Of a DNA stretch of 64,000 bases, positions 853 to 47,628 are shown one piece after another. The translations under genes and the position numbers were made by a program. Position 1 is the first letter of the stretch. The number at the start of each line of letters is the position of its first letter. The stretch covers positions 124,001 to 188,000 of the forward strand of contig CANGYH010000004.1 in the NCBI GenBank assembly GCA_947458545.1, read 5' to 3'. This DNA is from Cytophagaceae bacterium (lineage in GTDB: Bacteria > Bacteroidota > Bacteroidia > Cytophagales > Flexibacteraceae). The notes beneath the pieces were generated by a model. It worked only from the letters and a program-made list of their open reading frames with translations. It did no database searches and was not told the DNA's origin.

Positions 853-1092
853 TTAGAAAAAAAGAACCCCGGCTGTTGAAGCACCGGGGTTTGCATATTG
901 AACTAGAGGTTGGGCAACGAGCGTACCCACAGACTGATAGACAATGGGAGGTGAATGCTGCCACCCTCTAACCACCCGATGCACGGTGGGGCTTTGGAAA
1001 CCGCGTCCTTGAATCTCTGCCAGTTGCTGGGTGAGCTTATCCGCCGACACCTTCGCAACCAGTTCACTTACAGCTGCTTCTAACTTGGTCAT
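853..1092 (-). CDS. HTH antitoxin with C-terminal chaperone-addiction-like tail
   Basis: 79 residues starting at MTKLEAAVSEL. The ATG (1092-1090) overlaps the TGA stop of the upstream toxin gene (1091-1089) as ATGA, which decides this start over the in-frame ATG at 1131. The middle (SPTVHRVVRGWQHSP) reads as a helix-turn-helix of the Xre/Cro type. The C-terminal ~25 residues (VAQPLVQYANPG... GVLFF) are hydrophobic and low in charge, as expected for a chaperone-addiction domain that makes a TAC antitoxin depend on its SecB-like partner, encoded 16 nt downstream. DNA binding and autoregulation are likely from the fold; neutralisation of the toxin is inferred from gene order. Confidence 0.6.
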   Translation of the reverse strand: MTKLEAAVSELVAKVSADKLTQQLAEIQGRGFQSPTVHRVVRGWQHSPPIVYQSVGTLVAQPLVQYANPGASTAGVLFF

Positions 1093-1664
1093 GGGGAGGT
1101 TGGCTGTTGGTTGGAACTCGAAAATACACAACCAATTTTATGCAAATCTAGTGCCCTATCATGAAAAAGGCACAGCTGTGTAGGTTTTACGAACGTGAGC
1201 CGGACGCGGTTGGGCTTAATAACCAAAGCTGATCGGAGAGAGGGGTCTGTGCCTTCTAGAAACTCGTCTGTCAACGGATCGCCTTCGATTCGGATGGCTT
1301 CGTAGGGCATAAGCCCATGTTGAGAAAGAAGGACTACCACCTGTGCGAGTGTGATGAGCTCCCAGTTAAAATCTAAATGGGTAGCCAAGGCTTTGGTTGC
1401 AGCCTCAAGTTCCAGTCTTCCCAAAGGGTCAAGTAGATCCAGGCAAAGATTGTCCAGTATAAAGCTGAATTCGACAATCCGATATTGACCGCCGCACCTA
1501 CGCTGACCCCAAACATGGGCCAGGCGTATGTCTGTGTCCCACAGGTAATAGCCAGGACCCAGCCATGCGCTTTCTGATGCACAGTAGAACGGTGCCTTAC
1601 CCACATCTGTAGCTTCAGACCTCCGCTTTCGAATGGTTTGGTAGGCTGTCCTCGGCCCTTGCAT
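1089..1664 (-). CDS. ADP-ribosyltransferase-like toxin (CmdT-like), first gene of TAC operon
   Basis: 192 residues from ATG 1664-1662. The open frame continues to 2087, but a TAnnTTTG box lies at 1677-1670 just before this ATG and the upstream part overlaps the divergent lpxD-like gene, so the short form is chosen; the message would be nearly leaderless. The segment AWLGPGYYLWDTDIRLAHVWG matches the second conserved strand and helix of ART folds (GxGFYxxx...A..W), and the C-terminal PTQLCLFHDRAL resembles the late (Q/E)-containing strand of the DUF3990 and related ART toxins. The first conserved His/Arg strand is not obvious. Followed by an overlapping HTH antitoxin and a SecB-like chaperone, the same T-A-C order as CmdTAC, whose toxin ADP-ribosylates mRNA. 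Substrate here is unknown. Confidence 0.55.
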   Translation of the reverse strand: MQGPRTAYQTIRKRRSEATDVGKAPFYCASESAWLGPGYYLWDTDIRLAHVWGQRRCGGQYRIVEFSFILDNLCLDLLDPLGRLELEAATKALATHLDFNWELITLAQVVVLLSQHGLMPYEAIRIEGDPLTDEFLEGTDPSLRSALVIKPNRVRLTFVKPTQLCLFHDRALDLHKIGCVFSSSNQQPTSP

Positions 1665-8855: not shown

Positions 8856-9659
8856 ATGATAAAGTCAACCGGCAAGACGCCGCTTTCCTACTACGGAGGC
8901 AAGCAGCGCATGGTGCGGCACATCCTGCCGCTCATACCCACCCACAAAATCTACACCGAGGCATTCTGCGGAGGCGCGGCCATCTACTGGGCCAAGCCGC
9001 CGTCCGAGGTGGAGGTAATCAACGACCTCAACCATGCCGTGACGGCGTTCTGGCGTGTGCTCAAAACCGAGTACCAGGCCTTGCGGGAACAGATCGAGCT
9101 GACGCTCCACAGCCGCGATGCCTACGCCGACGCGCTTCACATCCTGGAGCGGCCGCACCTGTTCGACGAGCTGCGCGTGGCCTGGGCGATATGGGTCGGA
9201 TGCGTCCAGGGCTTCGGCTCCAAGCCCGAGAGCTGGGGTTACGACCTGAACGGCACCACAATCAAGAAGCTGGGCAACAAGCTGGCCGAGTTCGGCCCGC
9301 ACCTGGCGCATCGGCTTGCCCGCACGACGGTGGAATGCAACGACGCCTTGCGCGTGATCGCCAGCCGAGACACCGCCGGCACCTTCCACTACGTCGATCC
9401 TCCGTACTTCAACTCCAACTGCGGGCATTACGAGGGTTACTCCGAGCAGGACTTCAGGAACCTGCTGGATCTGCTCTCGCGCGTCGAGGGCAAGTTCCTG
9501 CTTTCGAGCTACCCCTCTGATTTGCTTGCGGAGTTCACCGACCGCTACGGCTGGCACACCGTCAGCATCGAGCAAAGCGTGGCCGTGACGGGCAAGCGGG
9601 CAGGCAAGAAAAAGAAGGTCGAAGTGCTCACGGCCAACTACCCGATACAGGCGAATTAG
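8856..9659 (+). CDS. Phage DNA adenine (N6) methyltransferase, D12 class
   Basis: 267 residues. N-terminal SYYGGKQRMV (about 11-20) and TEAFCGGAAIYW (34-45) form the SAM-binding motif I region, INDLN (55-59) follows, and the catalytic motif YVDPPYF has DPPY at 181-184. This is the order of Dam/D12-class enzymes, which methylate adenine N6; the lysine-rich tail (GKRAGKKKK) is phage-like. It would protect phage DNA from host restriction or mark it for control. It stands alone on the plus strand at the far left of the prophage and is convergent with the integrase, overlapping its end by 4 nt (9656-9659). Target sequence unknown. Confidence 0.9.
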   Translation: MIKSTGKTPLSYYGGKQRMVRHILPLIPTHKIYTEAFCGGAAIYWAKPPSEVEVINDLNHAVTAFWRVLKTEYQALREQIELTLHSRDAYADALHILERPHLFDELRVAWAIWVGCVQGFGSKPESWGYDLNGTTIKKLGNKLAEFGPHLAHRLARTTVECNDALRVIASRDTAGTFHYVDPPYFNSNCGHYEGYSEQDFRNLLDLLSRVEGKFLLSSYPSDLLAEFTDRYGWHTVSIEQSVAVTGKRAGKKKKVEVLTANYPIQAN

Positions 9660-10960
9660 CGTTTGCGTGTCGTTTTTTTAGGCAAAGAGCCCGGCCCTTG
9701 GTCGGGCTTTTTCTTTTCTCCGAAAAGCGTATCTAAGGTGTCGTCAACCGCTCCCTCGTCTAGTCTTGCCAGGTACGCTTCGGTAATGGTGATGTTGGAG
9801 TGGCCGAGCGCCCGGCTGACGGCGTACACGTCTCCGGTGGCCTTGATCGCATGATCCGTGAAGCTGTGACGAGCCATGTGCGTGGTGAGATTCTTCTCGA
9901 TGCCGGCATCTTGAGCCACTCGCTTTAGGAGCTTGTTTATGGTCGCAATGGAGGGCCCCGTGGCCGTCTTGCGGTTCTTCTCGATCCACTCCGGATCGAG
10001 CCCCGGGCGCATGAAGGGGAAAATGAAGTCCGCTGCCTTTGCATCTGCCTTGCGGTACTGCGCAAGAATGGCTTGCGCCTGGCTGGGTAGCTTGATGGAC
10101 TTGGTGGTACCTGTCTTGCCCATTCGGTAAAGCAGCCTATCTCCCTGCACGTTGCCCCAGCGCAAGCAGATGGCATCACCTACCCGCATACCGGCGCAGT
10201 AGTATTGGAAGAGCAACACCGACCGGGCATCATGGCGCCTGTCCTGCGATTGATAATCGAGTGCCTTGATTCGCTCAACCTCCACGGCCGTGAGCCGCTC
10301 CTTGTGTACCTTGTCCCACTTGAAGGTGTAGCGCAAAAAAGGATTCTTGGTGCCTTCGAGCAAGCCGTAATCAATGGCACGGCTTACCATGGCCTTTAAT
10401 TGCTCAAGCTTCTTATTGACCGTATTGCGTTTATTCTTGCCGAGCCAGTGCGCTTCAAGCCTATGAATAAGCTCTAGGGTAAGGTCTTGGATTTTGATAT
10501 CCGAGCCTTGCAAAAAGTCGCTTATCTCGTTATAGATCGTGGTGTATTTCACCGCCGTAGCCTGCGACTGCGCTACTCGGATATGCTCGATTTGCTGTTT
10601 GAAAAAAAACAAGAAGCCGCCCTCTTGCTTTCCGGATTTACCCTGCAGCGCGGCCTCAACGTACTGCTTGGCAACGTCGAAATCCAAGGCTTTACCGTCT
10701 TTTTCAAGCTGCATTAAGGCAGCCTCGGCCTGCCGCAATTTATTGCGGAGCCGAGGCGTTACGATAGCCCAGTCGTCTGCCTTTTTGCTTATCCAATTTT
10801 CCTGCGCTGGGTTGGCATTCTTGTTCCAGTGCTTGCCGAGCACGTAAATTCCGAGCGTGAAGCGGGCTATTTTCTTGCCCAGCGTCATGCGCAGAAGTAC
10901 CGGCTGTGTTCCGTCCTCCTTTAACCTGGGCCGAAGCTCAAATTTCAGGTGGACGGCCAT
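9656..10960 (-). CDS. Tyrosine-type integrase of the prophage
   Basis: 434 residues, a Bacteroidota-type phage integrase: arm-binding domain (about 1-95), core-binding SAM-like domain (about 115-215) and catalytic domain with Arg259 (CAGMRVGD), Lys282, His361-x-x-Arg364 (HMARH), His387 (LGHSNI) and nucleophile Tyr396 (TEAYLARLD). It recombines attP with attB at the tRNA-Ala 3' end. Its ATG overlaps the TGA of the upstream gene (ATGA, 10957-10960 region), making it the third gene of a translationally coupled repressor-exported protein-integrase operon, so it is probably transcribed with the repressor in the lysogen. Confidence 0.93.
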   Translation of the reverse strand: MAVHLKFELRPRLKEDGTQPVLLRMTLGKKIARFTLGIYVLGKHWNKNANPAQENWISKKADDWAIVTPRLRNKLRQAEAALMQLEKDGKALDFDVAKQYVEAALQGKSGKQEGGFLFFFKQQIEHIRVAQSQATAVKYTTIYNEISDFLQGSDIKIQDLTLELIHRLEAHWLGKNKRNTVNKKLEQLKAMVSRAIDYGLLEGTKNPFLRYTFKWDKVHKERLTAVEVERIKALDYQSQDRRHDARSVLLFQYYCAGMRVGDAICLRWGNVQGDRLLYRMGKTGTTKSIKLPSQAQAILAQYRKADAKAADFIFPFMRPGLDPEWIEKNRKTATGPSIATINKLLKRVAQDAGIEKNLTTHMARHSFTDHAIKATGDVYAVSRALGHSNITITEAYLARLDEGAVDDTLDTLFGEKKKPDQGPGSLPKKTTRKR

Positions 10961-11343
10961 CAGAAGCGGTACGTAATGGCAGCGTTGCCTAAGCCAACGT
11001 CGTAGCTTAGGCCGCCGCCGTTTGAATTTCCGGCCTTAATCAGGTAATTATTTCCACGCACGTAGTTGACGATGGAAAATCCCAGGCAGACGGCCCCGGC
11101 ACCTATGCTTACGCCGCCGAAAAAGCGCATATCCGTGTTGATTTGGCCCGTGCCGTGGTAGCGGCCGAGGTAAATACCGCCCGTTACGCCGAGCGCGGCG
11201 GCGGCACCGCCGAAGGCCAGGCCTCTGTTGTAGCAGGCACCGGCTTTGGCCAGATTTGAAGCCTCGATTTTAGGTTGATTCTGGCCGCTCGCGGAGGCGC
11301 AGATACCAAGAGCGAGCAGAAGCGTTGCGATTTGATTTTTCAT
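10960..11343 (-). CDS. Signal-peptide protein encoded between repressor and integrase
   Basis: 127 residues. A signal peptide (MKNQIATLLLALGICASASGQ, cleavage likely after SASG) is followed by a small glycine-rich protein with two hydrophobic stretches (GLAFGGAAAALGVTGGIYLG and GGVSIGAGAVCLGFSIVNYV) and a C-terminus ending AAITYRF, which suggests the outer membrane. Its ATG overlaps the repressor TGA (11340-11343) and its TGA overlaps the integrase ATG. Expression from the lysogenic operon points to a lysogenic-conversion or superinfection-exclusion role, but that is inference; no family is recognised. Confidence 0.75.
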   Translation of the reverse strand: MKNQIATLLLALGICASASGQNQPKIEASNLAKAGACYNRGLAFGGAAAALGVTGGIYLGRYHGTGQINTDMRFFGGVSIGAGAVCLGFSIVNYVRGNNYLIKAGNSNGGGLSYDVGLGNAAITYRF

Positions 11344-12071
11344 CTTGCGGGTGAGTAAACGATTCGGTCTATTTTCCAGACGGCCCGGATATCGTCCACC
11401 AGGACGGGCATGCTACCGCCCTCCGAGCTGTCGGAATGCAAGGTTAGCAGTCCCTTGGTTAGAATCTCGTTGTCGCGGATGCGCTTGATCACGAACGAGC
11501 TTCCGAAGCTGACAGCGTACACGCCGGCCGATAGGTACTGCCAGTCCACCTGGGGCACTGGAAGCGCAAGTACCATGGCTCCGGCCGGGTAGCCTGGCTC
11601 CATGCTGTCTCCGTTGACCTCGAAGACCACGCCCTGCTTGTTGAGCTTAGTAGGCTGGACGTAAAGGACTCTGATTCGCTCGATCTCTGGGGGGAGGGTT
11701 CCGGTCATGTTCTCAGTAAAGGTTGCGCGCATGTTGGCCTTGACGAAGGGCAGATCCACGAACTCTTGATCAATTAACAGACCCTTCGAGGTCACGTTGC
11801 CCTCGAGCAGCATAGGCCCCTCCGAGAGGCATAGCATCCACTCCGGATTGAGGTCAGGGAAGACCTGAAGCGTCCGGGATATCATCTCCGGCGTGGCGTT
11901 ACGCCCTGCCACCCGGTTGGAGAGCTGGCTTACCTGGGCCTGCGTAGCACCGATCATGTCGGCAAAGCGGGACTTACTGCCGACACGCTTGCTCTTGACC
12001 AAAAAATTTATCAACTCCGAAAACCGCTGATTGATAGCGTCTTGGGAGGTGCTTGGTACGGTTTCGCTCAT
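11340..12071 (-). CDS. CI-like repressor with S24/LexA-type C-terminal domain
   Basis: 243 residues. N-terminal Xre-type HTH (about 14-75; SRFADMIGATQAQVSQLSN is the turn) and a C-terminal S24 peptidase-like domain with the Ser of NGDSMEPG (Ser156) and Lys196 (VIKRI). Such repressors hold the lytic promoter shut and are inactivated when RecA-driven self-cleavage occurs. A clear Ala-Gly cleavage dipeptide was not identified. The gene is divergent from the early lytic operon across a 111-nt gap rich in palindromes and leads the leftward operon with the exported protein and integrase. Confidence 0.88.
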   Translation of the reverse strand: MSETVPSTSQDAINQRFSELINFLVKSKRVGSKSRFADMIGATQAQVSQLSNRVAGRNATPEMISRTLQVFPDLNPEWMLCLSEGPMLLEGNVTSKGLLIDQEFVDLPFVKANMRATFTENMTGTLPPEIERIRVLYVQPTKLNKQGVVFEVNGDSMEPGYPAGAMVLALPVPQVDWQYLSAGVYAVSFGSSFVIKRIRDNEILTKGLLTLHSDSSEGGSMPVLVDDIRAVWKIDRIVYSPAR

Positions 12072-21137: not shown

Positions 21138-21356
21138 ATGAGTAATTCTAAATCCGAAAACGGAATCCTAGGCTTCACCATGATCCTGACTCTGACTTTC
21201 ATCACCCTTAAGCTTATCGGAGCCATCGCCTGGAGTTGGGCCTGGGTCTTGAGCCCCATGTGGATGCCGATTGGCATCTTGGCCTTGGCCATGCTAGTCT
21301 ACTGGATTCACCAGACTCTCACAGGCATCGCTATAAGGAACGGATGGAAAAAGTAA
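21138..21356 (+). CDS. Small two-helix membrane protein
   Basis: 72 residues with two hydrophobic segments (MILTLTFITLKLIGAIAWSWAWVL and WMPIGILALAMLVYWI) and a short basic C-terminus (RNGWKK). Starts 42 nt after the primase-helicase and overlaps the next small gene by 13 nt. No family recognised. Confidence 0.65.
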   Translation: MSNSKSENGILGFTMILTLTFITLKLIGAIAWSWAWVLSPMWMPIGILALAMLVYWIHQTLTGIAIRNGWKK

Positions 21357-22810: not shown

Positions 22811-23299
22811 ATGATGAGACTCAGCCCGCTGGGACTATCTATCCTGAAGCACTATGAAGGCAAGGGCGGCAAGCCGGTCTTGAAAGCTTACCGCTGCCCC
22901 GGCGGCGAGTGGACGATCGGCTTCGGTACGATCCTGTACCCCAATAACGCACCCGTGCGCCAGGGCGACCGCTGCACCCCCGAGCAGGCGGAGGCCTACC
23001 TGCAGCATGACGTGCGCATTGCCGAGACCACCGTCCGCGCCCTCTTCCACGACGACAACCTGGCCCAGCACCAGTTCGACGCGCTCGTGTGCTTTAGGCA
23101 CAACTGCGGCGTTGGGGCCATCTCAAACTCTAGCCTGCAGGCCTACATCCAGAAGGGCGGGCGAGACCGCCAGCGCATAAGTGACCTCTTCTGCGCCTGG
23201 CACTTTGCCGACGGTCGCCGCCTCGACGGCCTGCTGGCCCGCCGCTCCACCGAGGCATTTCTCTTCAACACCGGCCAAGTCCGCTTCTTCGAGCTATGA
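22811..23299 (+). CDS. Endolysin, T4-type lysozyme (GH24)
   Basis: 162 residues (ATG ATG start). The GH24 catalytic region is clear: LKHYEGKGGKPVLKAYRCPGG with Glu16, then EWTIGFG with the family's Thr position, and later FDALVCFRHNCGVG, matching the T4 lysozyme FDALVSFAFNVG segment. It cleaves the MurNAc-GlcNAc bond of peptidoglycan at lysis. No signal peptide, so export needs the holin, which lies 14 kb away (36955). Its TGA overlaps the next ATG (23296-23299). Confidence 0.92.
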   Translation: MMRLSPLGLSILKHYEGKGGKPVLKAYRCPGGEWTIGFGTILYPNNAPVRQGDRCTPEQAEAYLQHDVRIAETTVRALFHDDNLAQHQFDALVCFRHNCGVGAISNSSLQAYIQKGGRDRQRISDLFCAWHFADGRRLDGLLARRSTEAFLFNTGQVRFFEL

Positions 23300-28497: not shown

Positions 28498-29043
28498 ATG
28501 TCCCTACCCGAGCGCACAGGCGAAGACCGCCTCGACTACTACGACAAGCTGATCGCCTGCATCGTGGGCGACCGAACACCCTCGCCTGAGCAGGAGGCGC
28601 AAATCGAGAAGCTAGACTTCGCCTGGTCGCTGCTGCGCACCTACCCGGACAAGCACACCGTCCGGAAAATCCTCGAGAGCAAGTACGATATCAAGTTCGG
28701 CCAGGCTTACAAGATCATCCGCGATGCCATCCGCATCTACGGCAACGTGGGGCAAGAGCTGCAGGAGGGCACCAAGTCGCTGTACGCGTCTAAGTTCCTG
28801 GCCATCGCCCAGCGGGCAGAGGAAGAGGGCAAGCTGACGGAGGCGATCTCCGCACTCTCTAAAGCCGCCAAGATCGAGGGTGCCTTCGATCGTGCGAGCA
28901 CCGAGCAAGAGGAGGACTGGAGTCCGCCGCGTGATATTGAGTTCACGACAGACCCGGCCGTCTTCATCGAGAGCCAAAAGACACACGACGTAGCGCACGA
29001 GGTACTGCCGGAGCCAGACGACGAGGAGGATGAAGAAGACTAG
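28498..29043 (+). CDS. Terminase small subunit
   Basis: 181 residues overlapping the large-subunit gene by 14 nt. A helical DNA-binding part (KLDFAWSLLRTYPDKHTVRKILESKYDIKFGQAYKIIRDAIRIYG) is followed by an oligomerisation helix and a very acidic C-terminus (PEPDDEEDEED), a usual layout for small terminases that recognise the packaging site and hand DNA to the motor. The family is inferred from position and this layout. Confidence 0.75.
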   Translation: MSLPERTGEDRLDYYDKLIACIVGDRTPSPEQEAQIEKLDFAWSLLRTYPDKHTVRKILESKYDIKFGQAYKIIRDAIRIYGNVGQELQEGTKSLYASKFLAIAQRAEEEGKLTEAISALSKAAKIEGAFDRASTEQEEDWSPPRDIEFTTDPAVFIESQKTHDVAHEVLPEPDDEEDEED

Positions 29044-30550
29044 CATATACCTCAACGCCAAGCAGCTGCTGTTCCTGCGCTCTCGCCACAAGCGCAAGAC
29101 CTTCATGGGCGGTCGAGGCTGCGGCAAGTCCACCGTGCTGGGCTTCTACCTATACCTGTGCATGCGCTACCTGCCGGGTGCCAAGTGGGTGTTGCTGGGC
29201 ATCACCTACAAGCAGCTCAACACCAAGACGGTGAAGGCACTGAAGGAAGCCTGGTCGCTGCTCGGCTGCATGCCCTACAATCCGCGCACCGGCCGTGGAC
29301 ACTATGTGGTGGGCAAGCGTCCGCCTGCGCACTTCAAGCAGGCCGTCTCCGCTCCGGAGGACTTCGACCACGTGATCTACTTCCGCAACGGCTTCCACAT
29401 CGAGATGATCAGCCAGGAGGTCGCGCAAGAGAACCGAGGCGGCAGCTACGACGGCGGTGCGGCCGACGAAGAGGCGCTTCTCGATCAAGAGTTCGTTACC
29501 CAGATCGGCGAGGCCTCGATTCGTGGCAACCGCTACCGCTTCAAGCACTGGCTGCACGGTTCGTTCTGCAGCTTCACCTCGATCCCCCGCACCACCAAGG
29601 GGCTGTGGGTCTTCAAAGTGGAGGAGGAGATGATACGCGAGCAGCAGCTCGTAAAGGCCGGCAAGCTGAAGAAGTCAGAGTGCCGCTACCTGTTCGTGGA
29701 GGCCCGCAGCGACGAGAACCTGCTCGTGCTGGGCGAGGACTACATCGAGCGCCAGCGGGCCGCTATGCAGCCCTGGGACTTCGAAGCGGAGATCATGAAC
29801 CAGCGGCCGCGCAAGCTGCCCAACGGCTTCTACCCCTCGCTGGAGCGGAAGCACCATGCCGTGTCTGACGTACACAAGTACGTCAAGAACTCGGCCGGAG
29901 AAATCGTGGCCAAGCTGGACAAGTTCTTAAACCTGGAGCAGAAGCTAGAGCTGTCCTTCGACTTTAACGCGGGGTTCACCTCCATGATCGTGTGCCAGGA
30001 GATCATCACCGGGGAGGGCATCGAGTTCCGCGTCGGCGACTCGCTTTGGGTGAAGCCGATGGAGACCGACAACAACCTCATCGACGCGCTCGTGGACAAG
30101 TTCTGCGAGGCATACAAGTACCACTACCTGAAGGTGGTGGACGTGTACGGAGACCGTAACGGCAACAGTAAGAGCGCAGGCAGCACCCTGACATTCTACG
30201 AGCAGATCATCATTCGGCTGGAGAAGCATGGGTGGTCGGTATTCAAGCGGCCGGAGCGAGATCTCGACATGGCGCACGACTTGCGCCACTTCCTGGTCAA
30301 TGCCCTGCTGAAGGAAGAATCGCCTACCTGGCCGAAGGTGCGCTTCCATTTCCAAAAGGCCGACGGCCTGCTCACCTCCATGGAGCGGGCACCCATCCTA
30401 GAGGGCTTCAAGAAGGACAAGGCCGACGAAAAGCGGCCCGTACCGCAAGAGCTGGCCACCCACCTCTCGGACTGCTTCGACAACATCGTCTGCCGCAAGT
30501 ACGACTGGATACTCACCGGCGATACCGGGCATCAGATTTGGCTGAGCTAG
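29030..30550 (+). CDS. Terminase large subunit
   Basis: 506 residues. N-terminal ATPase with Walker A GGRGCGKST (27-35) and Walker B GGAADEEALLD (about 143-153; Asp-Glu pair). The C-terminal nuclease has the first acidic residue in LSFDFNAGF (about 305-315) and further acids in VVDVYGDRNGN (about 365). It is the packaging motor that cuts concatemers at the portal. The portal gene should follow but is displaced by the 4-kb cargo island starting at the stop codon. The TAG is shared as CTAG with the convergent cargo gene. Confidence 0.92.
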   Translation: MKKTSIYLNAKQLLFLRSRHKRKTFMGGRGCGKSTVLGFYLYLCMRYLPGAKWVLLGITYKQLNTKTVKALKEAWSLLGCMPYNPRTGRGHYVVGKRPPAHFKQAVSAPEDFDHVIYFRNGFHIEMISQEVAQENRGGSYDGGAADEEALLDQEFVTQIGEASIRGNRYRFKHWLHGSFCSFTSIPRTTKGLWVFKVEEEMIREQQLVKAGKLKKSECRYLFVEARSDENLLVLGEDYIERQRAAMQPWDFEAEIMNQRPRKLPNGFYPSLERKHHAVSDVHKYVKNSAGEIVAKLDKFLNLEQKLELSFDFNAGFTSMIVCQEIITGEGIEFRVGDSLWVKPMETDNNLIDALVDKFCEAYKYHYLKVVDVYGDRNGNSKSAGSTLTFYEQIIIRLEKHGWSVFKRPERDLDMAHDLRHFLVNALLKEESPTWPKVRFHFQKADGLLTSMERAPILEGFKKDKADEKRPVPQELATHLSDCFDNIVCRKYDWILTGDTGHQIWLS

Positions 30551-31097: not shown

Positions 31098-31985
31098 ATG
31101 ACACAGCAGCAAATCATGGACAGCCAAGCCACCAAGAGCGCAAAAATGCGCCAGCTATTCGAGCTTGGTTTGACCCGCACCCAGGTAGCCGAAATCATGC
31201 GGGTAGGCTACGGCTTCGTGCAAAACGTGTACGCCAAGTGGGTGCTTACCCAGATGACGGCAGCAAGCCGCCCCAGCTTCGTACTGGGCGAGTTCAACCG
31301 CCGCTTCGGCATCGAGATTGAGGCCTTCGGCGTAGAGCGCAACGAGCTGCGCAGCGCCCTGGATGCCGAGGGCCTGCACTTCTGGCGCGTAGGGGCGGAC
31401 GGCTCCATCCGGGGCACCAACTCCTTCGAGTTGGTGAGCCCCATCCTGGTAGGCCTGGACGGCCTGGCGCAACTGGAAAAGGTCTGCCGCATACTGGCAG
31501 CCAAACGGGCGAAGGTCAATAAAAGCTGCGGCCTGCACGTACACATCGAGGCTCGTAGCTTCACCCTGCCCACCTGGAAAAACCTGTTTGCCTCATACGC
31601 CAACCTGGAGGGCACGATTGATACCATGATGCCCGAGAGCCGCCGGGGGCAGAGCAACACCTACTGCCGCTCAATTGTAGGCTACACCGAGCGGGCACAA
31701 GCCGCCACCACCGTCCGGGAGCTGGTACGTGCCTTGCCCAATCGGTACCACAAGGTCAATACCCTGGCCTTCTCCGAGCACGGTACTGTGGAGTTCCGCC
31801 AGCACAGCGGTACGGTAGAGTACACGAAAATCAGCAACTGGGTGCTCTTTTTGCACAGCCTCATCAGCTACTCGGAGCAGGGCTACCGCGTAAGCCCAGC
31901 CGCTACCTTTGAGGCAGCCGAGGCCTTCGCACCCCGCCCGGTGAGCGAGTTTTACTTCCAACGCATCAACGACCTGGCAGCCTAA
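31098..31985 (+). CDS. Amidoligase-family protein with N-terminal HTH
   Basis: 295 residues. Residues about 18-55 form an HTH (LGLTRTQVAEIMRVGYGFVQNVY). From 68 on the amidoligase pattern is clear: FGIEIEAFG (70-78), DGS (101-103), ELVSPIL (111-117), VNKSCGLHVHI (140-150), R-rich NTYCRSIVG, and EHGTVEFRQHSGT near 250. The family (PF12224, COOH-NH2 ligases related to glutamine synthetase) joins amino and carboxyl groups, for example to tag peptides or modify the envelope. Here it is phage cargo next to a 78-residue protein that could be substrate or partner. GC-rich, unlike the neighbouring minus-strand cargo. Confidence 0.8.
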   Translation: MTQQQIMDSQATKSAKMRQLFELGLTRTQVAEIMRVGYGFVQNVYAKWVLTQMTAASRPSFVLGEFNRRFGIEIEAFGVERNELRSALDAEGLHFWRVGADGSIRGTNSFELVSPILVGLDGLAQLEKVCRILAAKRAKVNKSCGLHVHIEARSFTLPTWKNLFASYANLEGTIDTMMPESRRGQSNTYCRSIVGYTERAQAATTVRELVRALPNRYHKVNTLAFSEHGTVEFRQHSGTVEYTKISNWVLFLHSLISYSEQGYRVSPAATFEAAEAFAPRPVSEFYFQRINDLAA

Positions 31986-34392: not shown

Positions 34393-34707
34393 ATGTCAGA
34401 AGACCTGATCTGTATCCGGCGAGTCTTATCGGAGATCTACTGCGCCCCTGAGCCATTCGCACTGACATTCATCACGCAGGACGGCAGAAGGGTCACGAAA
34501 GAATCCGTCCGGATCGGAGGAGGCAAGAGGCTGACGCAGAGGCAAGGGCAGGTGGTACCTGCTGCGCCTACCCGAGAGGGCAGACGCATCAAGGAAAATC
34601 ACCTGCTACTCCTCTACGACAACCTCGCCCGCCATCCCTTTTACGCAAAAATCTGCCTGCTCACGCATTGGAACGGGCTAAGAATCAAGCACCTATATGG
34701 TAAATGA
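34393..34707 (+). CDS. Small phage protein upstream of the portal
   Basis: 104 residues, basic (about 20 Arg/Lys), overlapping the portal gene by 11 nt. A central segment (SVRIGGGKRLTQRQGQVVPAAPTREGRRIKENHLLLLYDN) and the ending HWNGLRIKHLYGK suggest nucleic-acid or DNA-end binding. Unknown role in head assembly or packaging; kept because of the overlap with the portal gene and the same direction. Confidence 0.6.
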   Translation: MSEDLICIRRVLSEIYCAPEPFALTFITQDGRRVTKESVRIGGGKRLTQRQGQVVPAAPTREGRRIKENHLLLLYDNLARHPFYAKICLLTHWNGLRIKHLYGK

Positions 34708-35983
34708 GCACATCCAGCTAGACCGCAACGTCTGGCTACTGCCCAAATCAGGCGTACTCATCGACTTTGCCGCCCGCGACTCTGCCTTCTCGGACACCAG
34801 CTTCGAGGCCAAGTCCGGCGAGTTCAAGTTCGCCAAATGGGGCAAGGTCAACCTGCTTCCCCAGACCATGCTCGACCTGGTCACGCGCAACCACATCAAG
34901 GCCAAGCTGCTCACGACCGAGGAGGAGTACCTCTACGGCGCGGGCCTGAAGATCTTTAAGCGCACCCTGGTAGATGGCACCGAGCGCATCGAGCCCGCGT
35001 TCCATCCGGATATCCAGCGCTTTCTCAACAGCTTCAACCACCGCCGCTACATACAGCGGGCGATCAACAACTACGTCAACACGGCCAACGTGTTCACGGA
35101 GTTCGTGTTCAACGCCCTTCGCAACGTCGTTTCGCTCAAGTGCCACGACTCAACGGACGTCCGTGCCGGCATCATCGACCTGGCCAACGGCTCGGGCGAG
35201 GTGGAGCAATACGGCATCTGCCCTGACTGGAGCAAGACGCCCGGCGAGAAGAACCCGCTTGTGGTGGTGGATGCCTACCGCCCTGGGCAGATGCAGGCCA
35301 AATGCATCTTCCACGCCAGCCGTGAGCGCATGGGCCAGAAGTATTACAGCTACCCGGACTGGTGGGGTACCATGACGTGGACGGAGGTATCCAACCTGAT
35401 TCCGCTCTTCCACCGCAACGGCCTCAAAAACGGTTACAATATCAAGTACCTGATCAAGGTACCCAAGTCCTACTTTGACCGAATGGCCAACACCGACGAG
35501 GAGCGCGAGGCCAAGCGGCGCAAGCTGCGCGAGGACTTCGACTCGTTCTTCGCCGGTGCCGAGAATGCCGACAAGACCATCTGGTCAACCTATGACCTGG
35601 ACGCCAGCGGTCGGCAACAGCCCGGCATCGTCGTGGAGACGGTCGGCCAGACGGACTCCGACAAGAGCTACATCGAGCTGGACAGGCAGGCGAACATGAA
35701 CCAGGCCGTCGGCCATGGCGTGTTGCCCCAACTGGCCGGTATCGGCGACGGCTCCAACAAGGGCACGTCTGGCTCCGAACTACGGATCGTGTCCCAGCTC
35801 CATACGGCGCTCAAAACGCCCATGCCACGCCAGGTGCTGCTCGAGCCCTTTGAGATCGTAGCCCGGCACAATGGCTGGCCCGCCGAGTACTTCGTCGCCT
35901 TTTCGGACATCGAGATCACAACCTTAGACCAGAACCCGACGGGTAAGCAGCGGGTGGTAGATAATGGCCAGAACAATCTTTAA
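34697..35983 (+). CDS. Portal protein
   Basis: 428 residues. The segment NHIKAKLLTTEEEYLYGAGLKIFKR followed by a helical stem and the C-terminal LPQLAGIGDGSNKGTSGSELRIV... LEPFEIVARHNGWPAEYFVAF matches Bacteroidota-type phage portals; the GIGDGSN..GTS motif is a recurring portal feature. It forms the dodecameric DNA gate at one capsid vertex. Overlaps the next gene by 20 nt. Normally it follows the large terminase directly; here the cargo island separates them. Confidence 0.78.
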   Translation: MVNEHIQLDRNVWLLPKSGVLIDFAARDSAFSDTSFEAKSGEFKFAKWGKVNLLPQTMLDLVTRNHIKAKLLTTEEEYLYGAGLKIFKRTLVDGTERIEPAFHPDIQRFLNSFNHRRYIQRAINNYVNTANVFTEFVFNALRNVVSLKCHDSTDVRAGIIDLANGSGEVEQYGICPDWSKTPGEKNPLVVVDAYRPGQMQAKCIFHASRERMGQKYYSYPDWWGTMTWTEVSNLIPLFHRNGLKNGYNIKYLIKVPKSYFDRMANTDEEREAKRRKLREDFDSFFAGAENADKTIWSTYDLDASGRQQPGIVVETVGQTDSDKSYIELDRQANMNQAVGHGVLPQLAGIGDGSNKGTSGSELRIVSQLHTALKTPMPRQVLLEPFEIVARHNGWPAEYFVAFSDIEITTLDQNPTGKQRVVDNGQNNL

Positions 35984-36953
35984 CGACTTCGCCCAAATCA
36001 AGGAGATCGTCGGTACGGTACAAAAGAACATGGCCATGGCGACGCTTGAGGGCTACATCCTTCAGGCGCAGGAGCACTACATCCTGCCCGTGCTGGGCAG
36101 GCCGCTGCTGCAGGCCCTGGTGATAGGCGTAAACAGCGACAACCTGACCGCCGCCTATGGTGACTTGCTCGCCTACGTGCAGCGCCCGCTGGCATTCTAT
36201 GCCCTCGTTGCCGCCGCCCCAACGCTGATGGTGCAGACGGGCGACCGCGGCATTGTGGAGGGATTGAGTGACGAAGCGGCCCCGACGCGCCAGTGGGTGA
36301 TGCGAGACCTGGTCGAGAGCTGGCTGCAGTCAGCAGATCTCTTCACCGATATGCTCCTCGAGTTTCTCGAGGAGAACGCGCAGGCCTACCCGGAGTGGGC
36401 AAGCTCGGATGCCTACACAGTACTCAACAGTACCATCGTGCGCTCGGCCGCGCATTTGAGCCGCTACGTCAACGTGCAGGGCAGCCGCCGCACCTTCCTG
36501 GCGCTGCGGCCTTACCTGCTCCGCGCCCAGGAGCTACACCTTCCCGAGGTGTTGGGCGAGGCCCTGTACGCAGAGCTTACCCAAGCCCTGGCCGACGGCC
36601 AGCCGGGTACGTCCATGGAGGGCCTGGCCAAGGCCTGTATGCCCTTCGTGGCCCATGCGGCCATGGTGGAGGCCCTGCCCGAGATCACCGTGCAAATCAG
36701 CGGCAGCGGCATCAAGGTGCTTCAATCCAGCGACGGCATCAACAGCCGCCTACAGGCTTCAGACACGGCCATCTCGGCCTTGCAGGCCAAGCACCAGCGC
36801 CTGGCAGACACCTACCGGGTGGCGCTCATCAAGTACCTCGAGTCTTACGCAGACCTATATCCATCCTACGTGCCTGCCGCTGCCGGCACTTCACCTTACC
36901 TCACCCGGTTGCCCGACAACAGCGACGCTTCAGCCAAATCCTTCCTGATCTGA
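35964..36953 (+). CDS. Head-tail connector-type protein, DUF6712-like
   Basis: 329 residues, mostly helical, with two similar halves: TLEGYILQAQEHYILPVLGRPLLQALV (about 27-53) and LALRPYLLRAQELHLPEVLGEALYAELTQAL (about 178-208). This duplicated pattern (helix then I/LPVLG/LPEVLG and a leucine-rich helix) is that of the Bacteroidota phage family DUF6712, thought to be a connector or head-completion protein. Overlaps the portal gene by 20 nt and is followed 1 nt later by the holin. Confidence 0.65.
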   Translation: MARTIFNDFAQIKEIVGTVQKNMAMATLEGYILQAQEHYILPVLGRPLLQALVIGVNSDNLTAAYGDLLAYVQRPLAFYALVAAAPTLMVQTGDRGIVEGLSDEAAPTRQWVMRDLVESWLQSADLFTDMLLEFLEENAQAYPEWASSDAYTVLNSTIVRSAAHLSRYVNVQGSRRTFLALRPYLLRAQELHLPEVLGEALYAELTQALADGQPGTSMEGLAKACMPFVAHAAMVEALPEITVQISGSGIKVLQSSDGINSRLQASDTAISALQAKHQRLADTYRVALIKYLESYADLYPSYVPAAAGTSPYLTRLPDNSDASAKSFLI

Positions 36954-36954
36954 T

Positions 36955-37950
36955 ATGCTACGTTCCTTTCTTCGCGAGCTTGGATTCGAGACCCTGTCCG
37001 AACTGCTCGTCACCGTGCTGGGCATCAAGTCACTTACCCTGGTCGTGCTGCAGGTGTCGGCCGCTTCGCTTGTGGCTGGCTCGGAGTTCCTGGCCGACTA
37101 CATCTATAAGCCGCCCTCGGCGGTGTTCATCATCGTGGGCCTCATCCTGGCAGATACGCTGCTGGGCTTGCTTGTGGCCTACAACGCGGGCCACAAGGTC
37201 GATCTGCGAAAGATGACGCGCATGGTGCCCATCATGCTCTCGCATCTGGCGGTGATGTCGGTCTCCTACCACATCTCGCTGGCAGAGCCGGTGGCCTTCG
37301 CCTGGCTGCCCTCGGCTGTGTTCGGCTTCTTTGCTATGCGCAACTTCCTCTCGGCCGTCCAAAACATGATTCGCCTCGGCTGGATGCGCGGCGAGGTGCT
37401 CGAGTACCTCAACCGCCGCCTCTCGGCCGCAGACGAGCACCACTTGCCCGCCGCCGATAAGCCGGAGCCGCCCGTCCCCGTGCTTGCACTGGTTCTGCTT
37501 GCAGGCCTGACGCTATCTGCTTGCGCCACACGTCAGAGGTGTTACCGCAAGTACGGCGAGCCCGGCCATATCATGTTCGTGCGCGACACGGTGCGACTTA
37601 CCCAGCCCCAGAGCGAGGGCGATAAACGCCTCGAAGCGGACGCGGTAACGCTGCTGGCGCCAGGAGATAGCCTTGTGGCCACCACCCAGGACGGCACGGC
37701 CACGGCCATCCTGACGCGCCTTCCGTCTGCAAGTCCCAGCCAGGCTGGCCCTTACAAGCTAAGGGCCAAGCGGCAGGCGCAGACCTTCGTGCAGCCCAGG
37801 GCCGTGCCCTGCCCGCCCGTGCAGACCATACGCCCGCCTCCCGTCGTCGTCAAGCAGGTGCCCTGGTGGGTAAGCCCTGTTATTTGGGCCTTGCTCACGC
37901 TCCTTGCAGTCCAGACCTTGCGCAAGCGCTTTGGACTTCCGGGATGGTAA
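36955..37950 (+). CDS. Holin fused to a unimolecular-spanin-like lipoprotein/TM domain
   Basis: 331 residues. The first ~150 are a Bacteroidota phage holin with hydrophobic segments at about 27-48, 55-77, 90-108 and 113-130 and charged ends. After a Pro-rich linker comes a second export signal, VLALVLLAGLTLSAC, with lipobox LSAC (Cys190), then a beta/Pro-rich stretch (RPPPVVVKQVP) and a C-terminal transmembrane helix (WWVSPVIWALLTLLAV, about 305-322) with a basic end. Lipoprotein start plus C-terminal membrane helix is the layout of u-spanins, which fuse the membranes at lysis. A GTG at 37480 (Val176) could start the spanin separately. It shares its last bases with the next gene. Confidence 0.72.
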   Translation: MLRSFLRELGFETLSELLVTVLGIKSLTLVVLQVSAASLVAGSEFLADYIYKPPSAVFIIVGLILADTLLGLLVAYNAGHKVDLRKMTRMVPIMLSHLAVMSVSYHISLAEPVAFAWLPSAVFGFFAMRNFLSAVQNMIRLGWMRGEVLEYLNRRLSAADEHHLPAADKPEPPVPVLALVLLAGLTLSACATRQRCYRKYGEPGHIMFVRDTVRLTQPQSEGDKRLEADAVTLLAPGDSLVATTQDGTATAILTRLPSASPSQAGPYKLRAKRQAQTFVQPRAVPCPPVQTIRPPPVVVKQVPWWVSPVIWALLTLLAVQTLRKRFGLPGW

Positions 37951-38717
37951 CTCTGCAAATTGAAGACGCCACGTATCAGGTGCCCTCGCGGCTGGAGGAG
38001 CTGTGTAAAAAACAGCTTCTGGCCTGCGTAGGGCACCTTTTCTTTCCAGATAGACCGGCGGCGCAGGCCGCCGTGCTACTCACGCTGCTGCCGGCAGCGG
38101 CCAAAAAGCAAGTGCGGCGCTTTACGGACGCCCAGCGCCTGGACGTGGTACGTGCCGTCACGGCCTGGATGGGCAAGCCGCACCATACTTGCCCGATTAC
38201 CAGCTTCCGTCTTGGCCTGACGCGCTACCTGCTACCACGATACGAGCGCATATCGCTCATCGAGACGGCCAAAGCGCAAGAAGCCCTTGCCCGTTGGCAA
38301 AAAACCCAGAGCGAGGATGCCCTCAATCTCGCCGTTGCCACGCTTTGCCGCCCCAGGCGGCTGTGGCTGCGCTGCTTCCCCTTCGCCCGGCACTATGCCA
38401 CCGGCTGGGACGGCGACGAACGTGAGCGATACAACGCGGAAATCGTCGCAGCCAGGGCAAAGCGCATGGCCGGGCTGCCGCTGGCCAAGAAACTGCTCGT
38501 GGTATGGCACTTCGAGGGCATGATCGCAACGGCAAAACGGCAGTTCGCTGGCGTCTTCGCCCACTCCGCCCCGGGCTCCAAGCCCGCCCCGCTCATAGAC
38601 ACGGTATTCCACCTCTCCGGCACGGAGCTTGGCGACTACCGAGCCGTGTCACACACGCCGCTCGTCACGGTGCTCTACCTTATCCACACGCGGCTGGAGG
38701 CCGCAGCCCAGCAATGA
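37944..38717 (+). CDS. Hypothetical phage structural protein
   Basis: 257 residues from ATG 37944, overlapping the holin-spanin stop by 7 nt. Helix-rich and basic (RLEELCKKQLLACVGHLFFP, KKQVRRFTDAQRLDVVRAV), with a Cys-containing middle (TCPITSFRLGL, LCRPRRLWLRCFPF). Similar proteins occur between connector and tail genes in Bacteroidota prophages; a tail-assembly role is likely but not shown. Ends by ATGA overlap with the next gene. Confidence 0.6.
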   Translation: MVTLQIEDATYQVPSRLEELCKKQLLACVGHLFFPDRPAAQAAVLLTLLPAAAKKQVRRFTDAQRLDVVRAVTAWMGKPHHTCPITSFRLGLTRYLLPRYERISLIETAKAQEALARWQKTQSEDALNLAVATLCRPRRLWLRCFPFARHYATGWDGDERERYNAEIVAARAKRMAGLPLAKKLLVVWHFEGMIATAKRQFAGVFAHSAPGSKPAPLIDTVFHLSGTELGDYRAVSHTPLVTVLYLIHTRLEAAAQQ

Positions 38718-43564: not shown

Positions 43565-46500
43565 ATGGCTGAACTAGCTCCGATTAAAGTGATGGTCAAC
43601 GGCGAGGTCGCCGGAAAGACCATCAAAGACCTTCAGGGCACCGTGGCAGGTCTGGCGCGAGAGCTGCAGCGCCTGCCCATCGCCTCCGATGCCTGGATCG
43701 AGAAAGCTCGTCAGTACGACGAGGCGACCGGCAATCTGCGCCAGGCCAGGGACGCGGCCAAGCAGGTGTCAGACCAGATCAACCGGCTCGATCCAAGCTC
43801 GATGCGAGGCCTGCAACAGGAGGCCCAGCGCCTGGGCTCGGAACTGGAGCGACTTCCTGTTTACTCCGAGGCCTGGATAGTCAAGACGCGAGAGCTGGAG
43901 ACCGTCAAAAAGCGCATCCAGGATGCGGGCAAGGCGGCAAAGGAAGTGGCGCAAGCCATGGGCGAGGCGCAGCCGAGCGCCCTCGTGGAGGCCGGGCAGC
44001 GCATCGGTGAGCTGCGGGAGAAGTACGGCTCCACCCGTGAGGCCATCCGGCAGATGAAGACGGAGGCCCAGCAGCTTGCCGCGCAGATGCAGCGCCTGCC
44101 CGAGGGCTCGGCCGAGTGGATAGAGAAGTCCAAGGGCTTTGAGAAGATCACGGCCGAACTCAACCAGGCGGAAGGTGCCGCCCGGCAAGTGGCAAGGGCC
44201 CTGGGCCAGGCGGGAGAGGAGAGCCGCAAGTTCACCCTCGGCGATGTGGCCAGCTTCGCCGGCACCTTCGCGGGCGTACAGCTTGGCGTAGAGGCCGCGG
44301 CGTCGGCCATCTCGAGTTTTGCCAGCTCGTCCGTTGAGTCCATCTCGCAGTTTGAAGCCAGCTTGTCAAGTCTTAAGGCCATCACCGGCGCTACTGCTGA
44401 AGACCTTGAGTTCTACTCCGAGGCTGCACGCAAGATTGGCGAGACCACGACGCTCTCGGCCATCGAGGCGGTTGAGGCATTTAAGCTGATTGGCTCGGCC
44501 AAGCCGGAGCTACTGGCTAACAAGGAAGCGCTGACGGCCGTCACGCAAGAGGCCATCGCACTTGCGCAGGCTTCCGGTCTTGCCTTGCCCGAGGCTGCCA
44601 ACGCGCTTGTAGGCTCTCTGAATCAGTTCGGTGCGGGAGCGGATCAGGCAAGCCGATACATCAACGTGCTTGCCGCTGGCGCCAAGGAAGGCGCTTCGGA
44701 GATTACCGAGACAGCCGCAGCATTGAAGAACTCGGGTACGGTGGCAGCAGCGGCAGGCCTTTCTTTCGAGGCCACGAACGCGGTGCTGCAGTCGCTTTCG
44801 GCAATCTCCCTTAAAGGGAGCGAGGCAGGTACCGGCTTGCGTAACGTGCTGCTGCGGCTGCAGGCCGGGGCGGACGACACCAACCCTAAGCTGGTAGGAC
44901 TGCAAACTGCCCTCGATAACCTGGCGCAAAAGAACCTGTCCGCGGCAGAATTGACAAAGCAGTTTGGCGCGGAGAACGTGGTCGTAGCCCAGCGCATGAT
45001 CGCAAGCCGGGGCGAGATAGAGCGCCTGACTGGAGCCATAAGCGGCACACAGGAGGCCTATAAGCAGGCAGGCGACAACACGAACAACTTCGAGGCGGAC
45101 ATGAAGAGGCTGAAGGCTTCCTTCGAGACGCTGCAGATCGAGGTAATGAGCAAGATGCTGCCAGCACTCGAGCTATTTACGCGCGCCACCATCGCGCTGA
45201 TCAACGGTCTGAAGGAGTTGCCGGGCTGGATTTACGACAACCGCGAGGCCCTCCTCGCCCTGGTGGTGGCGCTCGTAAGCCTCAACGCGAATCAGATTCG
45301 TGCCTCGGCCAGTACGCTTGCCTTCACGGCCGTGGAGAAGGCAAGGGCAATCGCCACCAAGTCTTCAGCCGCGGCGCAGTGGCTGCTCAATGCGGCCATG
45401 ACCGCGAACCCCATCGGACTTGTGATCGCGGCGGTGGCCCTGGTGGTGGCAGGCTTCGTAACGCTCTACAAGAACAGCGAGATGCTCCGGGCAGGCATCG
45501 CAGGCCTGTGGAACGGCATCAAGGAGCTTGCCTCGATGTACCTGCAGTTTTGGAAGGCGCTTGCCACAGGCGATATCTCCGGCATCGTGGACATGTTCAA
45601 GGGAGCAGGCAAGCGGATTGCAAGTGCCTTCTCCTCGGGCTACGACGAGAAGATCAAGGAGGAGCACCAGGTCAACAAGCGGGCAGACGCCGACCGTGCC
45701 AAAGACCGAGCAGAGTCGGAGGCCAAGGCAGCCAACGCGGCTACCCAGCAGGCGGTGGCGGCCAAGGTCGGCCTTATCAAGAAGCTCGAGGAGGACATGA
45801 AGGCGCTGCGAGACCAGCTTTCCGATGCCGCCACCAGGTCGGAGATCGACCGCATCCGCAAGCAGATCGTGCGCACCCAAGCGGTGCTCGATGAGCTGAC
45901 GGGTAAGGCGGCGGAAGAACGTGCCAAGAAGGCTAAGGAGGAAGCCGAGAAACGCAAGAAGGAACTGGAGCAGCGGGCCAAGGACGAGCTTGACGCTCTG
46001 CGCAAGGCACAGGCCAACGAGCGCGCTTTGATCGCCGACGAGACCGCGCGAAAGGTGGCAGATCTGCGTGCCGCGGCTCAACTCGAAGTTGAGGCCGCCC
46101 AAGGCCGCAGAAGCACGGCCGAGACCAAGGCCAGGGAGATTGCCTCGATCGAGGCCAAGCTGCAGCGCGACATCGCCGACACGCTCGATAAGGGCCACCG
46201 GGCAGCGCAGGAGAAGGCCGAGAAGGCCGCGGCTGATCAGCTACGGATCGCGAGAGACAAAGCCCAGGCACTGGCTGACCTTGCCGTACTGCAGGCGCAG
46301 GAAGAGCAGCGCCTAGCCCAGCAGCGCGGCGACTTCGCAGGCAGCCAGGCGGCAGGCCGTCAGCTGCTCGATGCCCAGCTTGCGCAGCTTCAGACGCAAG
46401 CCGATATGGAGCTGCAGCAGATGGGATTGACCGAAGAGCGCAAGCAGCTGATTCTTGCCGAGAGCCAGGCCAAGCAGGCGCAGATGCTAGACGGCTACGC

Positions 46501-47482
46501 CCAGCAGCAGCGCGAGGTGAACGCCCAGACCGCTGCCGGCATCGTGAACGGATTTCAGCAGGCTTTCGGCACCCTGGCCGATTTTCAGGCTATCCAGTCG
46601 CAGCGAGAGATGCAGCGGGTGGAGCGCGACAAGGCAGCCAGGTTGCGTTCGCTTAACCAGGAGTTTGCGCAAGGCAAGATCTCCAAGCAGAGCTACGAGC
46701 GCGAGAAGGCCGGGATAGAGCAGCGATTCGCCGACGAGACGCGCTCTATCAAGCGTGAGGCTGCGCGGCGCGAGAAGATGTACAACGTGGCCTCTGCCAT
46801 TATGCAGGCCGCTATCGCCGTGATAGCGGCCTCGGCAAACCCGCTGGGTATTTTCTCGCCGCAGGCCATTGCCACCTCGGCCATGGCCGCGCTCAACATC
46901 GCCAAGGTGATAGCCACGCCCGTGCCAGACTTTGCCAAAGGCGGTCTGCTGCCGTCTCGTCGCATGGCGGCAGGCGGGGTGATCTCGGGGCCGAGCCACG
47001 CCCAAGGCGGCGTTCCGGTCGTCGGGCCCGGGGGTACTCAGATTGCGGAGGTGGAAGGCGGTGAGCCTATCCTTAGCCGCGCCACATACGCCAACAACCG
47101 CCAGCTGGTAGACATGCTGCTTGACACTTCTATGAACCGGGGCGGTGCCGCCCTGGCCATTGACACTTCAGCCTTGAAGGCAGTGCGGTTCGAGACGGGC
47201 GGCCTGTTGCCCGGCGGCGCCACATCCACAGCGCCTGCAGGTGCGGAAGTTGTCGCTGAGCTACGCAAGCTCTCCGGCCAGCTTGCGAGTCAGCACCAGG
47301 CCATGGCGCAAGTGGTGCAGAATGTGGACAAGCTGATGAAAGCTTACGTGGTCGTCAGCGAGGTGGGCGAGGAACTTGACAAGCTGCGGGAGCTTCGCCG
47401 CGACGCTTCAGGCTCTGCCAGAGACGGCACAGCAGGCGGCCAAGACGTACTGCTAGACCGGCTGTACTCCAACCCCAGGTAG
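43565..47482 (+). CDS. Tail tape measure protein
   Basis: 1305 residues, the longest phage gene, setting tail length (about 195 nm at 0.15 nm per residue, a rough estimate). Three ~50-residue repeats at the N-terminus share ELQRLP..(S/D)AWIEK. Then the TP901-type core (about 270-460; IGSAKPELLANKEALTAVTQEAIALAQ..., TGLRNVLLRLQAGADDTNP), hydrophobic membrane-like segments near 555-640 (AALMALVVALVSL-type and TANPIGLVIAAVALVVAGFV), and a long coiled coil (about 700-1080). The tail has GGVISGPSHAQGGVPVVGPGG, usual at tape-measure ends. It is the last phage gene, 72 nt from the right att core. Confidence 0.9.
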   Translation: MAELAPIKVMVNGEVAGKTIKDLQGTVAGLARELQRLPIASDAWIEKARQYDEATGNLRQARDAAKQVSDQINRLDPSSMRGLQQEAQRLGSELERLPVYSEAWIVKTRELETVKKRIQDAGKAAKEVAQAMGEAQPSALVEAGQRIGELREKYGSTREAIRQMKTEAQQLAAQMQRLPEGSAEWIEKSKGFEKITAELNQAEGAARQVARALGQAGEESRKFTLGDVASFAGTFAGVQLGVEAAASAISSFASSSVESISQFEASLSSLKAITGATAEDLEFYSEAARKIGETTTLSAIEAVEAFKLIGSAKPELLANKEALTAVTQEAIALAQASGLALPEAANALVGSLNQFGAGADQASRYINVLAAGAKEGASEITETAAALKNSGTVAAAAGLSFEATNAVLQSLSAISLKGSEAGTGLRNVLLRLQAGADDTNPKLVGLQTALDNLAQKNLSAAELTKQFGAENVVVAQRMIASRGEIERLTGAISGTQEAYKQAGDNTNNFEADMKRLKASFETLQIEVMSKMLPALELFTRATIALINGLKELPGWIYDNREALLALVVALVSLNANQIRASASTLAFTAVEKARAIATKSSAAAQWLLNAAMTANPIGLVIAAVALVVAGFVTLYKNSEMLRAGIAGLWNGIKELASMYLQFWKALATGDISGIVDMFKGAGKRIASAFSSGYDEKIKEEHQVNKRADADRAKDRAESEAKAANAATQQAVAAKVGLIKKLEEDMKALRDQLSDAATRSEIDRIRKQIVRTQAVLDELTGKAAEERAKKAKEEAEKRKKELEQRAKDELDALRKAQANERALIADETARKVADLRAAAQLEVEAAQGRRSTAETKAREIASIEAKLQRDIADTLDKGHRAAQEKAEKAAADQLRIARDKAQALADLAVLQAQEEQRLAQQRGDFAGSQAAGRQLLDAQLAQLQTQADMELQQMGLTEERKQLILAESQAKQAQMLDGYAQQQREVNAQTAAGIVNGFQQAFGTLADFQAIQSQREMQRVERDKAARLRSLNQEFAQGKISKQSYEREKAGIEQRFADETRSIKREAARREKMYNVASAIMQAAIAVIAASANPLGIFSPQAIATSAMAALNIAKVIATPVPDFAKGGLLPSRRMAAGGVISGPSHAQGGVPVVGPGGTQIAEVEGGEPILSRATYANNRQLVDMLLDTSMNRGGAALAIDTSALKAVRFETGGLLPGGATSTAPAGAEVVAELRKLSGQLASQHQAMAQVVQNVDKLMKAYVVVSEVGEELDKLRELRRDASGSARDGTAGGQDVLLDRLYSNPR

Positions 47483-47553: not shown

Positions 47554-47567
47554 GTGGAGGATAACGG
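47554..47567. repeat. Right attachment repeat (attR core)
   Basis: gtggaggataacgg, identical to 8489-8502, lies within the 3' end of tRNA-Ala (T-stem strand and acceptor). The tRNA remains intact across it. Confidence 0.75.
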
Positions 47568-47628
47568 AGTCGAACCGATGACCTTCTGCATGCCATGCAG
47601 ACGCTCTAGCCAGCTGAGCTAATCCCCC
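47555..47628 (-). tRNA. tRNA-Ala (anticodon GGC), prophage integration site
   Basis: On the minus strand: acceptor GGGGGAT (47628-47622) with ATCCTCC, D-arm GCTC...GAGC, anticodon stem TCTGC/GCAGA with loop ATGGCAT, anticodon GGC, T-loop TTCGACT and discriminator A at 47555. CCA is not encoded. The T-stem is ATCGG/CCGTT, leaving a U-U mismatch at the second pair (50-64). The mismatched 3' strand lies in the att core. It supplies alanine tRNA for GCC/GCU codons. Confidence 0.9.

Follow-up and report, generated by a model that had tools for sequence, protein, structure and literature searches.

Holins and spanins are treated as separate agents that act on separate membranes. Unimolecular spanins (u-spanins) with the layout of T1 gp11 carry a lipobox, a periplasmic region, and a C-terminal transmembrane helix (TM) in one polypeptide (Kongari et al., 2018; PMC6139136) and are described as N-terminal lipoproteins (PMC6139136). 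The embedded and overlapping spanin genes Rz/Rz1 of lambda and P2 encode two proteins in two frames. In the window, by which we mean the whole stretch of 64,000 nucleotides from a Cytophagaceae bacterium that was analyzed here, a holin half and a u-spanin-like half are joined in frame in one prophage gene, which is confirmed as a sequence feature. The gene at 36955–37950 is a single open frame of 331 codons with zero internal stops. A ribosome that initiates at 36955 and completes translation necessarily produces the fusion, as the two halves are not separated by a stop. The gene, its parts, and its surroundings within the window are as follows:

9656–10960, minus strand: tyrosine integrase
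11340–12071: S24-type repressor-like gene
22811–23299, plus strand: probable endolysin (phage lysozyme) with no obvious signal sequence (PF00959, E 9e-29)
29030–30550: terminase-like gene
34697–35983: portal-like gene
35964–36953, plus strand: DUF6712 (head adaptor-like) gene, immediate upstream neighbor, kept before holins in relatives (PF20459, E 1.3e-29)
36955–37950, plus strand: fused ORF with ATG start, 331 aa, consisting of holin, internal lipobox, u-spanin-like domain, and C-terminal TM
36955–37446, plus strand: predicted holin domain, residues 1–164 (PF05105, BLASTP, AlphaFold, Foldseek)
37366–37386, plus strand: candidate in-frame ATGs at 37366 and 37384, giving leaders of 52 and 46 residues (from the sequence)
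37447–37473, plus strand: linker, residues 165–173, A/P/E-rich like the ends of related holins (sequence; tails of 62 relatives)
37474–37521, plus strand: predicted internal lipoprotein signal or fifth TM, residues 174–189, VPVLALVLLAGLTLSA (hydropathy; model helix 177–189)
37480–37482, plus strand: candidate internal GTG start of a short spanin beginning MLALVLLAGLTLSAC, with weak context and no basic n-region
37522–37524, plus strand: lipobox Cys190 codon (LSA/C), predicted Lgt/LspA site (consensus fit; aligns with the Cys of relatives)
37525–37863, plus strand: periplasmic u-spanin-like region, residues 191–303, about 115 residues (pairwise E, shuffle test)
37870–37932, plus strand: predicted C-terminal TM helix, residues 306–326 (hydropathy, model)
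37944–38717, plus strand: downstream neighbor whose start overlaps the stop of the fused gene, found at the same place in the Pontibacter mangrovi prophage (BLASTP E 2e-25)
43565–47482: minor tail protein
47554–47628: tRNA-Ala, right after the last prophage gene

The tRNA-Ala gene marks the end of the prophage and is a likely attachment site; an exact repeat of at least 16 bases matching the tRNA-Ala end was not found at the other prophage end. Between the terminase-like and portal genes there is an Amidoligase_2 gene (E 4e-35) at 31098–31985. Upstream of the lysozyme gene, a small two-TM protein is encoded at 21138–21356, which shows a weak PF10269 match and could be an antiholin-like lysis component. 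A homolog of the DUF6712 gene product is annotated as “adaptor” in Polaribacter phage Leef_1. Besides the fused ORF, no other holin or u-spanin candidates were found within the prophage.

The GC content by codon position keeps the same frame across the holin/spanin junction, with the third-position GC changing from about 0.88 to 0.70 near 37420. When the last 166 residues of the 331-aa protein were shuffled 100,000 times, a lipobox together with a C-terminal TM occurred in 0.03% of cases, and among the 80 stop-to-stop frames of at least 170 aa in the window, both are present only in the fused ORF. The combination of upstream TM, internal lipobox, and C-terminal TM was encountered twice among 1512 ORFs of the examined loci, namely in the window ORF and in L173 from a Hymenobacteraceae prophage. 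Close relatives of the whole 331-aa protein were not found in IMG/VR, GTDB contigs, or INPHARED.

The four holin-like membrane segments that a preliminary description of this DNA had proposed were borne out by the AlphaFold model, which contains four predicted TM helices (residues 24–50, 53–77, 84–110, and 118–141, mostly at good confidence) as well as a helix at 146–161. A Foldseek search with this model returned phage holins for all of the first seven matches (best E 1.2e-3). The PF05105 profile (Phage_holin_4_1) matches residues 56–149 with an E-value of 1.3e-3 and 19.3 bits, which is below the curated cut-off of 22.2 bits, and the fused protein matches phrog_199 “holin” with E 0.0066. BLASTP of the holin half gave 1e-16 to the holin of the P. 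mangrovi prophage (L061) and 9e-15 to the holin of L045. An iterated profile from the window holin recovers the holin group, the L003/L132 member of which passes PF05105 (57.6 bits). Thus, homology and fold support the assignment of residues 1–164 to the Phage_holin_4_1-type holins, and this part would permeabilize the inner membrane and release the endolysin. At the L003 locus itself (host contig C3, second phage-like element, 919–1458, minus strand), the gene after the holin encodes a distinct protein of 179 aa that has one TM at either end and lacks a lipobox, possibly another spanin type.

The remaining parts that had been read from the letters also held up. L187-S-A-C190 fits the consensus [LVI][ASTVI][GAS]C, for which the published version quoted in PMC6139136 was used, and closes a 13-residue uncharged hydrophobic stretch in the same frame as the holin. 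In alignments, Cys190 falls on the lipobox cysteine of related u-spanins, and when these were checked for absence of the lipobox, it was found to be present, often continuing as C-A/T-x-S/T-R. The C-terminal TM was found both by hydropathy (304–322) and in the AlphaFold model (helix 306–326). The periplasmic region contains an R-KYG motif, a CPP..T..P..PP..V...WW motif, and the cysteines C196 and C286. In pairwise comparison, the spanin half matches that of L173 with E 2e-4 (30% identity in the alignment) and that of L174, a further prophage locus, with E 5e-5, whereas for the P. mangrovi u-spanin the score around the juxtamembrane motif was reached by 1 of 5000 shuffles. The motifs C-(A/T)-x-x-x-(K/R) and KYG shortly past the lipobox are shared by the window protein, L173, and L174 but not by P. 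mangrovi; a CP followed by a tryptophan pair ahead of the TM is shared by the window protein, L173, and P. mangrovi. These likenesses support the proposed u-spanin layout and a unimolecular-spanin-like identity of the second half, which has three homologs in the order and would disrupt the outer membrane. Pfam and PHROG profiles gave zero matches for the spanin half, and spanin queries against viral contigs either had no hits or recovered loci already known. Set against the beta-rich, cysteine-free periplasmic domain of unimolecular spanins, the model of the spanin region has three short strands at low confidence (pLDDT 54), and the region contains two Cys; this confidence was too low for a fold search.

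In related phages, the two halves are separate genes. The prophage of P. mangrovi (L061, NZ_VFRQ01000005), a member of the Cytophagales and thus of the host’s order, has the gene order DUF6712, holin, u-spanin, and a next gene that is homologous to window 37944–38717 (BLASTP E 2e-25). Here, the start of the u-spanin gene lies within the 3' end of the holin gene, in a different frame, so that there are two overlapping genes. Hymenobacter prophages and viral contigs have an endolysin gene or other genes behind the holin; a stand-alone u-spanin, complete with lipobox and C-terminal TM, comes after these. Out of 63 distinct related holins (non-redundant count), 62 end 5–52 aa after the holin domain, and only the window protein runs on, for 170 aa. 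A separate downstream u-spanin was detected for at least 28 of the 63 by a strict filter and for others (e.g., L061, L058, and L050) by eye. A PF05105 search in 376 genomes of the phylum yielded no further holin-spanin fusion, and none in nature was found in a literature search in which subscription papers were incompletely covered. Long open frames of other holins (243–348 aa) were rejected as further fusions, as their extension is N-terminal only. A likeness between the tail of the P. mangrovi holin and the window linker (SAEDDHHL/SAADEHHL) is probably due to chance, because the P. mangrovi bases there also encode the spanin signal. Overall, the comparison supports the view that the window gene arose when two lysis genes, which lie side by side and overlap in relatives, were joined in frame.

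Related spanins have been joined in frame to other modules as well. In L173 (1309–1983), which lies just past an amidase, a two-TM module is in frame with a lipobox, a spanin region, and a C-terminal TM. The protein matches PHROG 5595 over residues 4 to 222, the N-terminal part alone with 4e-9 and the C-terminal part alone with 3e-12. Since PHROG 5595 covers L173 end to end, at least one family has preserved the layout of TM module, internal lipobox, spanin, and C-terminal TM. PHROG 5595 is unannotated and, being amidase-adjacent in L173, is a candidate lysis family. The PHROG 5595 profile matched neither the window protein nor its spanin half. No reference phage with PHROG 5595 was identified, and such a fusion was not seen in the examined lysis regions of Cellulophaga phi46:1 and of Flavobacterium, Porphyromonas, Bacteroides p00, and Winogradskyella phages. 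In L174 (G338:C28, minus strand, 1438–2220), a LytTR domain (residues 8–101, E 1.1e-7) is in frame with a spanin signal of classic type, VIKLLPVLILLLLSSC, with codon 101, a GTG, as its start, right where the LytTR domain ends. This gene sits between nuclease-like and terminase small-subunit-like genes of a prophage. L174 has the appearance of two genes that overlap in one frame, the second starting at the GTG; a spanin behind a cytosolic LytTR domain fits such an arrangement rather than a working fusion. With the spanins of L173 and L174 both in frame behind other modules, in-frame joining recurs in this u-spanin type, whereas the joining to a holin is a singleton.

Because the halves are separate genes in related phages, the single protein may need to be cut in two during lysis. 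We tentatively favor, at somewhat less than an even chance, that the gene product is a precursor which is cut at Cys190 by Lgt and LspA into a holin and a u-spanin. Translation from 36955 would yield one protein with six TMs: the four helices of the holin come first, followed by a short tail in the cytoplasm, a fifth helix serving as lipoprotein signal, the periplasmic spanin region, and the inner-membrane C-terminal TM. Given the even number of holin helices with a presumed N-in/C-in topology, the spanin signal would also be N-in and Cys190 would face the periplasm. Host Lgt and LspA would modify and then cut the precursor at Cys190, leaving the holin with an additional helix and freeing a u-spanin that has a lipid anchor in the outer membrane and a TM anchor in the inner membrane. 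The lysozyme (gene at 22811) would be let out by the holin, and disruption of the outer membrane would fall to the u-spanin. Such a cleavage is the simplest way for the spanin to get to the outer membrane. In favor of joining and cleavage we count the stop-free frame across both halves, the syntenic two-gene version, the linker, which in the window frame resembles an ordinary A/P/E-rich holin tail, the other two frames, which offer no usable spanin start, the C-in topology presumed for the holin, the lack of any further holin or u-spanin candidate in the prophage, the alignment of the lipobox Cys, the layout of PHROG 5595, and the presence of LspA (PF01252, E 3.6e-34) and Lgt (PF01790, E 6e-65) in the host genome. 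Against it, we count that the holin-spanin fusion is a singleton from one assembly, which may reflect prophage decay or sequence error; that the linker is net acidic and the residues after Cys190 are basic (RQRCYRK), which is poor by the positive-inside rule; that C196 and C286 would be periplasmic, whereas a periplasmic Cys occurs in 0 of the 58 catalogued u-spanins (PMC6139136); and that the arrangement in L174 speaks for overlapping genes in this spanin type. A literature search on this point gave no precedent for LspA cleaving a protein behind a polytopic domain.

The main rival reading, which we consider less likely, is that the u-spanin is made separately from an in-frame nested gene, starting at GTG 37480 or ATG 37366/37384, and that the full-length product is a holin with a tolerated tail. 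The lipoprotein signal, which is internal (residue 174) in the full ORF, becomes N-terminal only if such an internal start is used. Lysis genes often overlap, the P. mangrovi spanin begins inside the holin gene, albeit in another frame, and the GTG at the LytTR end of L174 makes an in-frame overlap with internal start look possible. GTG 37480, the spanin start suggested in the preliminary description, is indeed present, but its context is weak, as the 20 upstream bases include just two A and no K/R is left before the hydrophobic core to form a basic n-region; the ATGs would give long leaders of 46–52 residues. Moreover, in-frame start codons are expected by chance near a V/L-rich stretch, and a full-length product from 36955 would still be unavoidable. 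The cleaved precursor and an internal start could both be true.

We regard it as unlikely that the joining is a non-functional accident, in which loss of a stop codon or a sequencing or assembly error merged the genes without any biological role. Such an origin would agree with a singleton among 63 holins that is known from a single assembly, but the flanking genes are intact, frame and codon-position bias are continuous, and the integrase, repressor-like, portal-like, and tail genes of the prophage have open frames. A frameshift or sequencing error is disfavored as origin, since a check of the other two frames for starts and holin-like tails gave none that convinces: no usable spanin start was found there, and the tail in frame +2, which ends at about 37456, is rich in arginine and unlike holin tails. 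An uncleaved protein with both functions, in which one chain provides the holin pore as well as the periplasmic spanin region and there is no outer-membrane lipidation, would suit the continuous ORF and the recurrence of fusion layouts, but it is highly improbable, as a u-spanin needs the lipid anchor to reach the outer membrane, an uncleaved signal would keep both ends in the inner membrane, and the lipobox residues are kept.

A single gene for holin and spanin would couple their amounts and timing, and the question arises if Lgt and LspA can process a lipobox behind a polytopic membrane domain. If the cleaved precursor holds true, internal-lipobox precursors like PHROG 5595 would make this a recurrent strategy in Bacteroidota phages. 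The data also point to a neglected group of u-spanins of Bacteroidota phages that carry no functional name in either Pfam or PHROGs and in several cases are in frame behind other proteins.

Compared to the Phage_holin_4_1 holins (PF05105/phrog_199) of Cytophagales prophages such as L061, the window protein shares residues 1–164, the place after DUF6712, and the downstream gene, but continues for 170 aa where its relatives stop 5–52 aa past the domain. With the Rz/Rz1 genes it has in common the compact overlap of lysis genes, whereas its parts share one frame. The single ORF of L173 (PHROG 5595) resembles it in having an N-terminal TM module, an internal lipobox, a C-terminal TM, and, between these last two, a spanin region that is related to its own (E 2e-4); there, the N-terminal module is a small two-TM segment, whereas in the window it is a Phage_holin_4_1-type domain. 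Lipobox, periplasmic region, and C-terminal TM in one polypeptide are common to the window protein and the unimolecular spanins, the likeness to gp11 being one of layout; unlike in the catalogued ones, the lipobox is internal rather than N-terminal, and two periplasmic Cys are present.
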